From: an uncultured Alphaproteobacteria bacterium
GTDB taxonomy: Bacteria; Pseudomonadota; Alphaproteobacteria; Caulobacterales; Caulobacteraceae
Direction of reading: 5' to 3'
Length of the DNA stretch: 64,000 bases
NCBI GenBank assembly: GCA_903822175.1
Contig: CAIJOB010000030.1
Coordinates: forward strand, 1 to 64,000
Notes under the pieces: generated by a model
What the model was told of the DNA's origin: nothing
Seen by the model: only the letters and a program-made list of their open reading frames with translations
The model's database searches: none
Made by a program: the position numbers and the translations under genes
In this document: positions 3,018 through 59,664 of the stretch, piece after piece
Position numbering within the stretch: position 1 is the first letter of the stretch
Layout: each line of letters opens with the position of its first letter

Positions 3018-3041
3018 CCTCCCCCGTTTGCACGGGGGAGG
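3018..3041. repeat. perfect GC-rich hairpin between uvrC and the kinase gene
   Basis: Ten-base arms (CCTCCCCCGT and its complement) enclose the loop TTGC. It lies between divergent genes, so it is not an ordinary terminator. Its core resembles hairpins at 51945-51967 and 58500-58623, suggesting a dispersed palindromic repeat. Confidence 0.7.
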
Positions 3042-15493: not shown

Positions 15494-17476
<1,983 letters not shown>

Positions 17477-17520
17477 AGAGGCTGACGCTACGCCTGAAGG
17501 GTCGGCGGGGAAAGCTGGAA

Positions 17521-51944: not shown

Positions 51945-51967
51945 CCTCCCCCGCAAGGCGGGAGAGG
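51945..51967. repeat. imperfect GC hairpin between DUF427 and gshA
   Basis: CCTCCCCCGC pairs with GCGGGAGAGG with one mismatch, then continues into GAGGAACT, the same sequence that follows the hairpin core in the 58500 palindrome. It lies between convergent stops and may also serve as terminator. Confidence 0.6.
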
Positions 51968-55140: not shown

Positions 55141-56346
55141 ATGCCTAACGATAAACTGACCGCCGGCGAGGCTCGCCGCATCGCGCTGGCGGCCCAGGGG
55201 TTCGCCACGCCCCGGCCCACTGGGCCGGTGACCAAGCGCCAGCTCGTCAAGCTGATCGAGCGGTTGGGCGTGGTGCAGATCGATAGCGTCAATGTGGTCA
55301 GCCGCACCCACTACCTGCCGGCCTTTTCCAGGTTAGGCGCCTATCCGCGCGAGATGTTGGAAGAGGTCGCCTGGGCGAAGAAGCGGCCGCTGTTCGAGTA
55401 CTGGGCGCATGAGGCATCCCTGCTGCCGCTGACCAGCCAGCCGCTGTTCCGCTGGCGCATGCAGGACGCGCGGGACGGTGTCGGCCTCTGGAAAGGCGTC
55501 GCGCGCTTCCGGCGCGAGAACGCCGACTTCGTGGAGAAGGTGCTGGAGACCATTCGCACGCGCGGGCCGATGTCGGCCTCGGAGCTGGAGATCGGCCAGA
55601 AGGGCGTCGGCGGCTGGTGGGGCTGGAGCCACGCCAAGAGCGCGGTGGAGGGCCTGTTCTGGACCGGCGAGCTGACCACCGCCACGCGGCGCGGGACCTT
55701 CGAGCGGGTCTACGGCCTGCCGGAAAAAGTGCTGCCCCGCGCCATCGTCGAGGCCCCAACGCCCAGCCGCGAGGACGCCCACCACGCCCTGTTGCGCATC
55801 GCCATCGCCGCCATGGGCATCGCGACGGGCAAGGACCTGCGGGACTATTTCCGCATGCCGGTCGAGGGCTTCAAGGATCGCGTCGCAGAACTGGTCGAGG
55901 ACGGCAGTCTAGTCCCGGTGACCGTGAAGGGCTGGCGCGACCAGGCCTACCTAGACCCCGCCGCCAAGCGTCCGCGCCGCGTCGCCGCCCAGGCCCTGCT
56001 CTCGCCCTTCGACAACCTGATCTGGTTCCGCGAACGCACCGAGCGGATGTTCGGCGTCCGCTACCGGATCGAGATCTACACGCCCGCCGAAGAGCGCACC
56101 CACGGCTACTACGTCCTGCCGTTCCTGGAGGGCGACGCGCTGACCGCCAAGGTCGACCTGAAGAGCGACCGCAAGGCCGGCGTCCTGATCGTCCAGGCCA
56201 GCCACGCCGAGCCCTGGGCGTCCGACGCGACGCCGGTGCGGTTAGCGCAGGAGCTGAAGCTGATGGCCGGATGGCTCGGGCTGTCGAGCGTGCGCGTGGA
56301 GAAGAAGGGCGACCTTTCAGCCGCCCTCTCCGCCGCCGTCGGCTAG
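55141..56346 (+). CDS. ycaQ: YcaQ/AlkX-type winged-helix DNA glycosylase
   Basis: 401 residues from ATG 55141 with GGAG upstream. It matches the HTH_42/YcaQ family (AlkZ/AlkX): LTAGEARRIALAAQGF, then LGVVQIDSVNVVSRTHYLPAF, where the catalytic motif reads Gln-Ile-Asp (QID), the YcaQ/AlkX variant rather than the Gln-x-Gln of AlkZ. Further: FEYWAHEASLLP, AQALLSPFDNLIWFRERTERMF and GYYVLPFLEGDALTAKVDLK. YcaQ removes alkylated bases and unhooks DNA interstrand crosslinks. The LexA box upstream is consistent with damage induction. Confidence 0.93.
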   Translation: MPNDKLTAGEARRIALAAQGFATPRPTGPVTKRQLVKLIERLGVVQIDSVNVVSRTHYLPAFSRLGAYPREMLEEVAWAKKRPLFEYWAHEASLLPLTSQPLFRWRMQDARDGVGLWKGVARFRRENADFVEKVLETIRTRGPMSASELEIGQKGVGGWWGWSHAKSAVEGLFWTGELTTATRRGTFERVYGLPEKVLPRAIVEAPTPSREDAHHALLRIAIAAMGIATGKDLRDYFRMPVEGFKDRVAELVEDGSLVPVTVKGWRDQAYLDPAAKRPRRVAAQALLSPFDNLIWFRERTERMFGVRYRIEIYTPAEERTHGYYVLPFLEGDALTAKVDLKSDRKAGVLIVQASHAEPWASDATPVRLAQELKLMAGWLGLSSVRVEKKGDLSAALSAAVG

Positions 56347-58130
56347 ACCCACCCTTCCGTCACCGCGTGCAGCCGCGCGTAGGCGCCGCCCTTTTTCACC
56401 AGGTCGGCGTGCTTGCCCTCTTCCACGATGCGGCCGTCCTCGAAGACCAGGATGCGGTCGGCGCCGCGGATGGTCGACAGGCGGTGGGCGATGACGATGG
56501 TGGTGCGGCCGACCATCAGCTCCTCCATGGCCGCCTGCACCTGCCGCTCGGTCTCCACGTCCAGCGATGAGGTCGCCTCGTCCAGCACCAGGATCGGGGC
56601 ATCAGCCAGGAAGGCGCGGGCGATGGCCACCCGCTGCCGCTCGCCGCCCGAGAGTTTCACCCCGCGCTCGCCGACCAGCGTGCGATAGCCCTGCGGCAGC
56701 TTGCCGATGAAGTCGTGGGCGCGGGCCCGCTTGGCGGCGAGCTCGACCTCGTCCTGGGTGGCGCCAGGCCGGGCGTAGGCGATGTTCTCGCTGAGCGTCC
56801 GGTGGAACAGCGCCGGGTCCTGCGGCACCACCGCGATGGCGCGGCGCAGGCTCCCCTGGCTGACCGTGGCGATGTCCTGCCCGTCCACCAGGATCTGGCC
56901 GGCGTCCACGTCATAGAGCCGCTGGATCAGCTTCACGAAGGTCGACTTGCCCGCGCCCGTCGGCCCGACCAGCGCCACCCGCTCGCCAGGCGCGATGCGC
57001 AGGGTGAAGTGGTCGTAGAGCGGGGTCGCCGCCGACTTGTAGCGGAACACCACCCGGTCGAAGACGATCTCGCCCACCTCCGGCCGGAAGGGCTTGGCGT
57101 TCGGGGCATCGAGTACTTGCGGCGCCATGATCGCGTAGCGGGCCACGTCCTCGGTGTCGTCGAGGCCCTTTTGCGTCATGCGGATGTTGTCGCCGATGTT
57201 TCGCAGATAGCCGGTCATCAGCATGAAGGCGGTGATGACGAAGGCCACGTCGCCCGGCGTCGCCTGCCCCTTGGCCCACAGCCGCAGCAACAGGCCGGTC
57301 AGCCCCGCCTGCAGCACCACCAGCAGGATGCTGTGGAACAGCCAGATGTCAGTGAAGCGGTTCCAGGTCTTGTTGGCCGCAAGGCGCCAGAGATCGGTGA
57401 CGCCGGCGACGCGGGCTTCCTCGCGCGCCTCCGCGCCAAAGCTCTTCACCGTCGGGTTGGACGAGATGGAGTCGGCAAGCGCGCCGCCGATCCGGCTGTC
57501 CAGCGCCACCGAGCGCAGGTTCGCCGGCCGTGCATAGAGGTTCGTCGTGACGATGTTGGAGACGATGTAGAGCGTCACCAGGACGGTGGAGAAGGCGCCC
57601 ACCATCGGCCAGCGCGCCGCCATCATCGCGCACAGCCCGATCAGCACGATGATTGCGGGGCCCAGGAACACCAGGGCGGCATCCGACACGTTGTCATAGC
57701 CCCACATCGCGCGGCTGAGCCGGCGCACGGTGGCGCCGGCGAACATGTCGGCGTGCCAGTCGGCGCTGAACGACTGGACCCGCTGGAAGCCCTCGTCGGT
57801 CATCTCCTTCATGTTGGAGGAGGCGAGCGGAATCCAGAACCGCATGGAGAGGTTGCGGATCATCGAGAAGGCGAAATAGACGCCCACGAAAATCGCCCAG
57901 GCGCGCCAGGCGCTGGCGGCGTTGGACTGGCCATGGGTCACCGCGTCGACCAGCCGCCCGGACGCCCAGGGCGTCGCCAGGTCGAAGGCGATGGCGGCGA
58001 TGACGAAGGTCACGGTCCCCGTCAGCAGCCAGGGGCGGCGAAGCCAGAACTTGGCGATGAAGGCCAGCACGGCGCTGTTCTTCAGCACCCGCGCCTTCTG
58101 GTCTTCGGTGTCTTCGTAGTGGTCGGTCAT
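56343..58130 (-). CDS. ABC transporter, fused permease/ATPase
   Basis: 595 residues. The N-terminal membrane domain (about 30-330, six helices, starting LRRPWLLTGTVTFVIAAIAF) is followed by one ATPase: Walker A VGPTGAGKSTF (about 395), Q-loop VPQDPALF, signature LSGGERQRVAIARAF, Walker B ILVLDEATSSLD, H-loop IVIAHRLST. It resembles lipid, peptide or multidrug half-transporter exporters that act as homodimers. The stop overlaps the convergent ycaQ stop by four bases. Its leader contains a short ORF and GC hairpins. Confidence 0.93.
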   Translation of the reverse strand: MTDHYEDTEDQKARVLKNSAVLAFIAKFWLRRPWLLTGTVTFVIAAIAFDLATPWASGRLVDAVTHGQSNAASAWRAWAIFVGVYFAFSMIRNLSMRFWIPLASSNMKEMTDEGFQRVQSFSADWHADMFAGATVRRLSRAMWGYDNVSDAALVFLGPAIIVLIGLCAMMAARWPMVGAFSTVLVTLYIVSNIVTTNLYARPANLRSVALDSRIGGALADSISSNPTVKSFGAEAREEARVAGVTDLWRLAANKTWNRFTDIWLFHSILLVVLQAGLTGLLLRLWAKGQATPGDVAFVITAFMLMTGYLRNIGDNIRMTQKGLDDTEDVARYAIMAPQVLDAPNAKPFRPEVGEIVFDRVVFRYKSAATPLYDHFTLRIAPGERVALVGPTGAGKSTFVKLIQRLYDVDAGQILVDGQDIATVSQGSLRRAIAVVPQDPALFHRTLSENIAYARPGATQDEVELAAKRARAHDFIGKLPQGYRTLVGERGVKLSGGERQRVAIARAFLADAPILVLDEATSSLDVETERQVQAAMEELMVGRTTIVIAHRLSTIRGADRILVFEDGRIVEEGKHADLVKKGGAYARLHAVTEGWV

Positions 58131-58319
58131 CGGAGGGCTCGAAAATCTCGGCGCCCGTGGACCGCGAATGTCTGGACTCAGACGGCGGCGCTTGGGCGCG
58201 AATGGAAGGTCTTTGGGTGAGGCGGGGATTTTTAGAAAAAACCCCGACGGGCCCCGGGCGCGCGGAAGCGCTTCGAAACTTGGGGCCTCAAGGCCCCCAG
58301 GCGAAGCAGTCCGGTTGAG

Positions 58320-58376
58320 TTAGAAGCGCGGCGGCGGCCCGGCGCACGGTCGCGGAGCAGCTGGAATGAACGTCAT
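58320..58376 (-). CDS. candidate 18-residue proline-rich leader peptide
   Basis: ATG 58376 is preceded by AAAGGAGGG five bases away, an excellent ribosome site. The frame reads MTFIPAAPRP then CAGPPPRF and stops at TAA: six prolines in 18 residues, including PPP three residues from the end, and two arginines. It is followed by hairpin-forming GC blocks (including GGGGCC stems around 58245-58300) and a T run before the ABC transporter start 190 bases downstream. A stalling leader acting on the transporter gene is possible; a chance frame is the alternative. Confidence 0.5.
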   Translation of the reverse strand: MTFIPAAPRPCAGPPPRF

Positions 58377-58499
58377 TTCGGCCCTCCTTTCGCGTGGCTG
58401 AGGTGGCGGAAGCTAGGCGCGCGGGTTTTGAGCGTCAAGGCGAGGGGAGAACCCGGTTCTGGCTTTGTCGCCAAGGTGGCGGTGAGGCCACACCCGTAC

Positions 58500-58623
58500 C
58501 AGCGCCTCCTCCACCACTTCGTGGTCCCCCTCCCCCGTCTTCACGGGTGAGGAACTGACGGCGCCAAGTTCCTCACCCGTGAAGACGGGGGAGGGGGACC
58601 ACGAAGTGGTGGAGGAGGCGCTG
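58500..58623. repeat. 124-base element with perfect 57-bp inverted arms
   Basis: Left arm 58500-58556 and right arm 58567-58623 are exact reverse complements around a ten-base loop. Each arm also contains smaller palindromes (CCAC..GTGG and CCCGT..ACGGG). It lies 21 bases before the ubiA start and would form a very long hairpin. No ORF occurs in it. The core CTCCCCCGT recurs at 3018 and a variant at 51945. The rest of 58131-58499 contains the leader candidate and no other gene. Confidence 0.92.
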
Positions 58624-58644
58624 CGGGCGCACTAGAGAAGGCGC

Positions 58645-59664
58645 GTGACCACCGCTTCCCATCTCCCCGACGCCATGCCCACCAATTGGGTCGACCGGTT
58701 CGCCCCCGTGGGCCTTCGCCCGTGGCTGAAGCTTGGGCGGTTCGACCGGCCGACCGGGATCTGGCTCTTGATGCTGCCGGGCTGGCAGGGGATCGCCCTC
58801 GCCGACGCCCTGGAGCAGCGGCTGCCGGACGTGGGGCTGATGGGTCTGGTGGCGCTCGGCGCGGCGCTGATGCGCTCGGCGGGTTGCGCCTACAACGACA
58901 TCGTCGACCGCGACATCGACGCCAAGGTGGCGCGCACCGCGATGCGGCCGATCCCGGCTGGCGAGATCAGCGTCAAGCAGGCCTGGGCCTACGTCATCGT
59001 CTGCTGCCTGGCCTCGCTCGCCATCCTGCTCAGCCTGCCGCCGACGGCGGTGCTGCTGGGGGTCGGCTCGCTGGCCTTGGTGGCGGCCTACCCGTTCATG
59101 AAGCGGATCACCTGGTGGCCGCAGGCCTGGCTCGGCCTGACCTTCAACTGGGGCGCGCTGCTGGGTTTTTCGGCGGCGACCGGCGCTGGGCCGGCGTTCT
59201 GGCGCGGCATGGCGCCTTACATCCTGACCAACGGCGACAGCCGGTTCCTGATGCGGGCGCTGGCCGACAGCGCGCTCACCTGGCCCGCCGTCCTGCTCTA
59301 TGCCTCGGGCGTGTTCTGGACGCTGGGCTACGACACTATCTACGCGATCCAGGACATCGAGGACGATGCGCTGGCCGGGGTGAAGTCCTCGGCGCGGCGG
59401 CTGGGCGCAGGCGCCCCGCTGGGGATCCTGGGGTTCTATCTGGTGAGCCTCGCCATCCTGATCGGCATGGGCGCGGTCGCGAACCTCGGCCCGCTCTTCT
59501 ACATCGCCCTGATCGCCTATGGGGTGCAGCTATGTTCCCAGGCGCGCAAGGTGCGGATGGACGATGGCGAACGCGCGCTGCGGCTCTTCAAGTCCAACAG
59601 CTGGGCCGGCCTGATCCTGGTGCTGGCGATCATCGCGGGCACACGAATTCCGCAACTCTTCTAG
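58645..59664 (+). CDS. ubiA: 4-hydroxybenzoate octaprenyltransferase
   Basis: 339 residues, start GTG 58645 with AGAAGG upstream; ATG 10 codons in is an alternative. First Asp-rich motif NDIVDRDIDAKVARTAMRPIPAG, second DIEDDALAGVKSSARRLG, with the opening RPTGIWLLMLPGWQGIALA. About nine helices. It prenylates 4-hydroxybenzoate in ubiquinone synthesis, feeding the electron carrier used by the respiratory chain. It is followed after 17 bases by a desaturase gene on the same strand. Confidence 0.96.
   Translation: MTTASHLPDAMPTNWVDRFAPVGLRPWLKLGRFDRPTGIWLLMLPGWQGIALADALEQRLPDVGLMGLVALGAALMRSAGCAYNDIVDRDIDAKVARTAMRPIPAGEISVKQAWAYVIVCCLASLAILLSLPPTAVLLGVGSLALVAAYPFMKRITWWPQAWLGLTFNWGALLGFSAATGAGPAFWRGMAPYILTNGDSRFLMRALADSALTWPAVLLYASGVFWTLGYDTIYAIQDIEDDALAGVKSSARRLGAGAPLGILGFYLVSLAILIGMGAVANLGPLFYIALIAYGVQLCSQARKVRMDDGERALRLFKSNSWAGLILVLAIIAGTRIPQLF

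Follow-up and report, generated by a model that had tools for sequence, protein, structure and literature searches.

The described systems closest to the palindrome analysed here are REPINs, CGTC-tagged REPs, CIR repeats and the quasipalindromes. In the REPIN account (PMC3116915), short extragenic REPs form inverted pairs around a less conserved spacer and show compensatory changes, the doublet is the probable spreading unit, and RAYTs mobilise it. CGTC-tagged REPs, as described in PMC3733652, occur in alphaproteobacteria (Caulobacter crescentus is CGTC-positive), have stems of 8-9 bp with CGTC (or TGTC, CCTC) at one end, lie mostly between tandem or convergent genes without a dedicated transposase and form dimers, frequently heterodimers; that preference is given there without obvious explanation, and clearance by SbcCD is offered tentatively. 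CIR repeats (Chen and Shapiro, 2003; described in PMC2229807) are intergenic inverted repeats of about 110 bp in Caulobacter relatives in which a GANTC site is expected, and quasipalindrome correction (PMC7202029) is a template-switch mutation at imperfect inverted repeats.

Here, we analyse a palindrome upstream of ubiA in a 64,000-nucleotide stretch of DNA from Caulobacteraceae, the whole of which we call the window. Our comparisons confirm that it belongs to a REP-doublet family with no RAYT detected; its perfect arms and its position in a predicted promoter set it apart. Like REPINs, the family pairs a dispersed REP unit in inverted doublets whose spacer is less conserved, is mostly extragenic and displays compensatory changes, and the doublet may be its spreading unit too; it differs in having arms of about 57 bp with two sub-hairpins each, and no RAYT was found in its own genome, nor the B-side end of the unit at the 12 RAYT loci examined in relatives. 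Moreover, it lacks a GTAG-type terminal tag: GTAG or CTAC occurs in 1 of the 17 own-genome places examined, with their 20-nt flanks, out of 31. The family resembles CGTC-tagged REPs in its alphaproteobacterial hosts, dimers, frequent heterodimers and tandem or convergent settings, and may likewise lack a dedicated transposase (Y1_Tnp being the one covered), but its units are longer, CGTC or GACG, counted at any position, occurs in 7 of the same 17 places, and its heterodimers are found in genomes without SbcD over the cut-off. In size, inverted-repeat form, intergenic position and occurrence in Caulobacter relatives it is similar to CIR, except that GANTC is absent from the window copy; among long copies, the site occurs in 2 of 5 in the own genome and at 4 of 60 loci in other genomes.

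Results

A perfect palindrome upstream of ubiA

The features to which we refer are as follows (positions in the window).

3018..3041, no strand: solitary A-type hairpin with the core of the window palindrome
51945..51967, no strand: solitary A-type hairpin, followed by AACT
56343..58130, minus strand: ABC transporter permease/ATP-binding gene, divergent from ubiA (25 NCBIfam hits shown, all below cut-offs)
58475..58480, plus strand: GGTGGC, putative displaced upstream block of the host
58500..58556, no strand: left arm, one REP-like unit of 57 bp, in exact inverted repeat
58513..58525, plus strand: sub-hairpin B of the left arm, ACCAC-TTC-GTGGT (mirror copy 58598-58610)
58530..58552, plus strand: sub-hairpin A of the left arm (mirror copy 58571-58593)
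58557..58566, no strand: spacer of 10 nt between the arms, GACGGCGCCA
58567..58623, no strand: right arm, next to the ubiA promoter, matching the left arm exactly in reverse complement
58608..58613, plus strand: GGTGGA from the right arm, 18 bases before CTAG, possible -35 region
58632..58637, plus strand: CTAGAG, -10 box of ubiA predicted from conservation, 7 bases before the start codon
58645..59664, plus strand: ubiA, 4-hydroxybenzoate octaprenyltransferase (TIGR01474, 326.8 bits, cut-off 275.45)

An earlier note on this DNA had described exactly complementary 57-bp arms at 58500..58623 that contain sub-palindromes and end 21 bases before ubiA, and each of these points is borne out: the arms (58500-58556 and 58567-58623) pair at 57 of 57 positions around the 10-nt spacer, the sub-palindromes are present, and 21 bases separate the right arm from the GTG start codon at 58645 of the gene, which its TIGR01474 match identifies as ubiA. 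The predicted RNA fold reaches -146.9 kcal/mol (z -18.5) and was equalled by none of 200 shuffles, and the DNA fold has a z of -20.1. The palindrome is the strongest self-complementary peak in the 64-kb window and the only one scoring at least 20; one base-shuffled copy of the window, used as a control, gave no peak at 16 or above. Rfam at gathering thresholds returned no family at the palindrome (its only match in the window is a TPP riboswitch at 17376-17483, minus strand; RF00059, 75.2 bits), and the plasmid and phage collections gave no match at E 1e-5. As to the hairpins at 3018 and 51945, which the note had linked to the palindrome, both share the A-hairpin core and neither shares anything beyond it. 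We take the element to be the two arms, and the bases past 58623 to be host promoter, possibly including an outer tail that ends in GCAC. Because this tail terminates many other copies and is also present in the empty site of one relative (G070), the right border is uncertain by about 10 bases.

A repeat family of Caulobacteraceae

The unit is far from a single copy. It matches at least 31 places in its own 4.02-Mb genome at E <= 1.2e-8, a lower bound since 40 of 60 candidates were scored (both strands merged; in two cases a pair of places is separated by about 20 bases), and the genome itself is a draft of 42 contigs, 96.5% complete. Five of these copies are long doublets; the others are shorter units, single or paired, several of which adjoin a second unit type, inverted, in BIME-like mosaics. 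For 27 of the 31 places, assigned with a rough gene caller, the setting was tandem in 17, convergent in 5, within a called ORF in 3 and divergent in 2, of which the window site is one. Together with the paired inverted orientation and the empty sites in relatives described below, this agrees with the dispersed REP-like repeat that had been suggested from the sequence. Beyond this genome, the unit matches 62 of 100 genomes of its genus, probably Phenylobacterium (E <= 0.001, 8 candidates scored per genome), an exact core pattern occurs in 170 of 249 Caulobacteraceae genomes with up to 51 copies, and a class-wide sample yielded 4 of 289 genomes, three within Caulobacteraceae (its own among them) and one outside. 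Across copies, one stem pair of sub-hairpin B covaries (A-T 64, G-C 52, C-G 20, other 5). A literature search, with most subscription papers outside reach, found no description of this repeat.

A search for the TnpA-REP transposase (Y1_Tnp) that the earlier note had proposed to look for found none in the own genome; 5 of 14 control genomes match, Caulobacter vibrioides among them, and with 96.5% completeness an absent RAYT gene could lie in the missing part. In the genus, Y1_Tnp matches occur in 20 of 100 genomes (18 over the cut-off) and in none of G031, G060 and G082, all of which carry many copies of the window unit. Copy number was not associated with RAYT presence among the 55 genus genomes covered by both the search and the copy count (12 vs 43 genomes, P 0.26), and the B-side end of the unit lay at none of the 12 RAYT loci examined, out of 23 Y1_Tnp matches, although loose A-core matches were present. 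RAYT as the mobiliser is unsupported by these results. In G009, where 30 loci were scanned and a loose spacer pattern oriented 15 doublets, the arm order relative to the spacer was alike in 9, reversed in 1 and different in 5.

Empty and occupied sites in relatives

Close relatives differ in whether the sites of the element are empty or occupied. The ubiA site is empty in G041 (L073) and G070 (L075), and G026 carries an unequal doublet at the same position as the window's. However, the neighbouring ABC protein of G026 is less like the window's (72.6% identity) than are those of the empty-site genomes G041 (87.1%) and G070 (82.6%), and we therefore make no case for common descent of the insertion; in the UbiA tree, G026 is absent and the forks are mostly unresolved. 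The element at ubiA in G082 may be a separate event, since the left host flank is missing there. At a second site, C42:11116, G041, G070, G082 and G074 are empty, and G058 has a palindrome from another family. Two further relatives hold short stretches before CATGACCCGC, 23 bases like the spacer plus inner right arm in G026 (L255) and 29 bases resembling the outer ends in G059 (L254), which are possible scars of a deleted doublet. For C42:200042, no match was obtained in G059 or G074, and G082, where a flank is missing, was left out. The target-site duplication for which the note had suggested looking did not emerge clearly from the empty-site comparisons, the best candidate at ubiA being CGTAC versus CGCAC.

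At sites L004, L005 and L008 (G026, G041, G058, G070), palindromes of other sequence fill gaps that hold the window family in the own genome. Palindromes scoring at least 20 occupy 8 of 25 gaps in close relatives at four sites, 7 of the 8 being from other families, and 8 of 36 when 11 more distant ubiA loci are added, five of them with one flank only. As background, 109,893 bases contained 5 peaks; because those bases are mostly coding, the excess over intergenic DNA is only moderate; we do not rely on the idea that the sites are hot spots. At one further ubiA locus (L230, G040), UbiA is 57% but the ABC protein 85% identical to the window's and another ubiA match lies on contig C49, so that this locus may be rearranged or misassembled.

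Unequal arms in the other doublets examined

We entered 65 doublets from five genomes (own genome 5, G009 30, G013 13, G031 9, G060 8), a part of the matches listed that leaves out a second doublet in L169 and those of G082 and G092, and kept 61 after excluding four that matched the reference arm only weakly (G009 1, G013 3). The window doublet is the only one with perfect arms; the other 60 are unequal, with whole-arm identity of at most 93%. In four genomes the two arms of a doublet are less alike than randomly paired arms (P values uncorrected for multiple tests): 0.857 vs 0.885 in G009 (none of 5000 permutations as low, n=29), 0.798 vs 0.829 in G013 (P 0.0012, n=10), 0.826 vs 0.865 in G031 (P 0.0016, n=9) and 0.840 vs 0.880 in G060 (P 0.013, n=8). 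The same trend was non-significant among the four other long doublets of the own genome (P 0.15). For none of the 120 arms of other doublets was its own partner the best match, whereas the window's two arms are identical; local alignment does find parts of other doublets to be identical or nearly so, 31 of 31 bases in L215 and 61 of 65 in L208. With the other 60 doublets examined unequal, the family does not in general have identical arms. The earlier note had offered recent duplication or upkeep by gene conversion for this element; arm-to-arm copying within this one copy fits best.

We infer such copying as the best fit for the window's identical arms from two observations, that it is the sole perfect copy and that GCGCCGTC, in the reverse complement of its spacer, is common to the unequal doublets C42:200042 and C42:11116, with one adjoining base on each side varying among the three. 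In these two doublets, identity to the window arm is 0.90-0.91 for one arm and 0.77 for the other; since both arms of the remaining two long own doublets are about equally close to the window arm (0.88-0.91), the one-arm-type argument rests on two doublets. The clues to direction conflict: the spacer would have the right arm overwritten, the outer GCAC tail the left. The most likely route would be that replication switched templates within the hairpin of an ancestor whose arms were unequal. Quasipalindrome correction is known from short cases; here, 57 bp would have been copied and loop-length differences removed.

The unequal arms alone can also be explained by copying of an unequal master doublet. 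SbcD (TIGR00619) was over its cut-off in none of the 12 genomes covered, the one weaker match being in G013 (13 of 14 control genomes match, 8 over the cut-off). The heterodimer preference is thus now measured in four genomes without SbcD over the cut-off, one of them with the weak match, which suggests that SbcCD alone would not account for it, and the window copy is a natural exception to this preference with perfect arms.

The element adjoins a conserved -10-like box

An NTANNN box precedes an in-frame ATG or GTG by 7 bases in 44 and by 8 bases in 20 of 91 distinct ubiA loci, and every other gap from 0 to 30 accounts for 0-6 loci, under a lenient choice of start codon (any in-frame ATG/GTG from -60 to +33). 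In the window this box falls downstream of the palindrome. A consensus scan of 58130-58700 found no sigma-70-type promoter, so that our claim for a ubiA promoter rests on conservation. A search of both strands of the window finds GGTGG(A/C)-N17-19-CTAG a single time, with N18. The empty-site genomes G041 and G070 have GGTGGC-N18-CTAG as host sequence, and GGTGGA-N18-CTAG is element-borne in the window, G026 and G082, in all three of which the border between element and -10 box falls on one and the same base. The shared N18 arrangement may reflect selection for promoter function, an insertion held in common or chance, and GGTGG is a putative -35 region. Leaderless mRNAs are common in Caulobacter crescentus (375; PMC4117421).

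Discussion

By comparison of genomes, we demonstrate the repeat family, its doublet form, the unequal arms of the other doublets examined, the empty sites and the place beside a conserved -10-like box. We consider it probable that the window palindrome is a Caulobacteraceae REP-like doublet without a cognate RAYT in the core promoter of ubiA, with one arm copied over the other, a leaderless ubiA and a role as promoter DNA. The doublet consists of two units of about 57 bp, each with two sub-hairpins, inverted around a short spacer, and the adjacent -10 box would give rise to a leaderless ubiA mRNA. Any action of the palindrome would then be that of promoter DNA, in which it would form a new upstream half and possibly a cruciform, rather than that of a leader in the mRNA.

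The doublet form, dispersal and intergenic position, the RAYT matches in a fifth of the genus genomes and the prevailing arm order in G009 are also what a REPIN proper would display, its RAYT lost or in the unsequenced part of the genome and its identical arms marking a fresh copy. We regard this as improbable, given that Y1_Tnp is missing from the own genome and from copy-rich G031, G060 and G082, that copy number shows no RAYT association, that the B-side end is absent from the RAYT loci examined, and that no other doublet examined has perfect arms. Nor is the perfection of the arms likely to come from the assembly: short reads could have let an assembler collapse unequal arms to one path, and a draft in 42 contigs with one perfect doublet in 61 invites the thought, but the same assembly kept the unequal arms of its other four long doublets, and we hold an artefact to be unlikely.

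The earlier note had also offered an RNA structure affecting ubiA, that is, a 57-bp hairpin in the 5' leader controlling stability or translation. The fold is very stable and lies 21 bases from the start codon, and 22 of 27 places are between tandem or convergent genes and thus would be transcribed; the window site, however, is one of the two divergent ones, G041 and G070 have no element at ubiA, and the conserved -10-like box sits between palindrome and start codon, which puts the likely transcript start past the palindrome. An RNA leader is therefore not favoured and seems unlikely to us: the palindrome is probably not part of the mRNA, and is more likely to affect ubiA as promoter DNA than through RNA. 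On the preferred reading of a doublet within promoter DNA, one may speculate, though we think it doubtful, that REP-like palindromes are ready-made promoter parts and that the perfect window copy could be a cruciform promoter switch; the ubiA site makes promoter-part donation by such repeats a testable idea.

On the other side of the intergenic region, TTGACGC-N14-CCTAGCTTCC at 58406-58440 (minus strand) is presumably the housekeeping promoter of the divergent ABC transporter gene.

Separately, in L226 (G059), L227 (G058), L230 (G040) and L118, the ubiA start is immediately preceded by a different palindromic repeat, of the CCCTCCCC-ATAAAG-GGGAGGG type, whose hairpin loop supplies the -10-like hexamer (in G058, G059 and G040, ATAAAG 7-9 bases before that start); a similar palindrome is found in L078.
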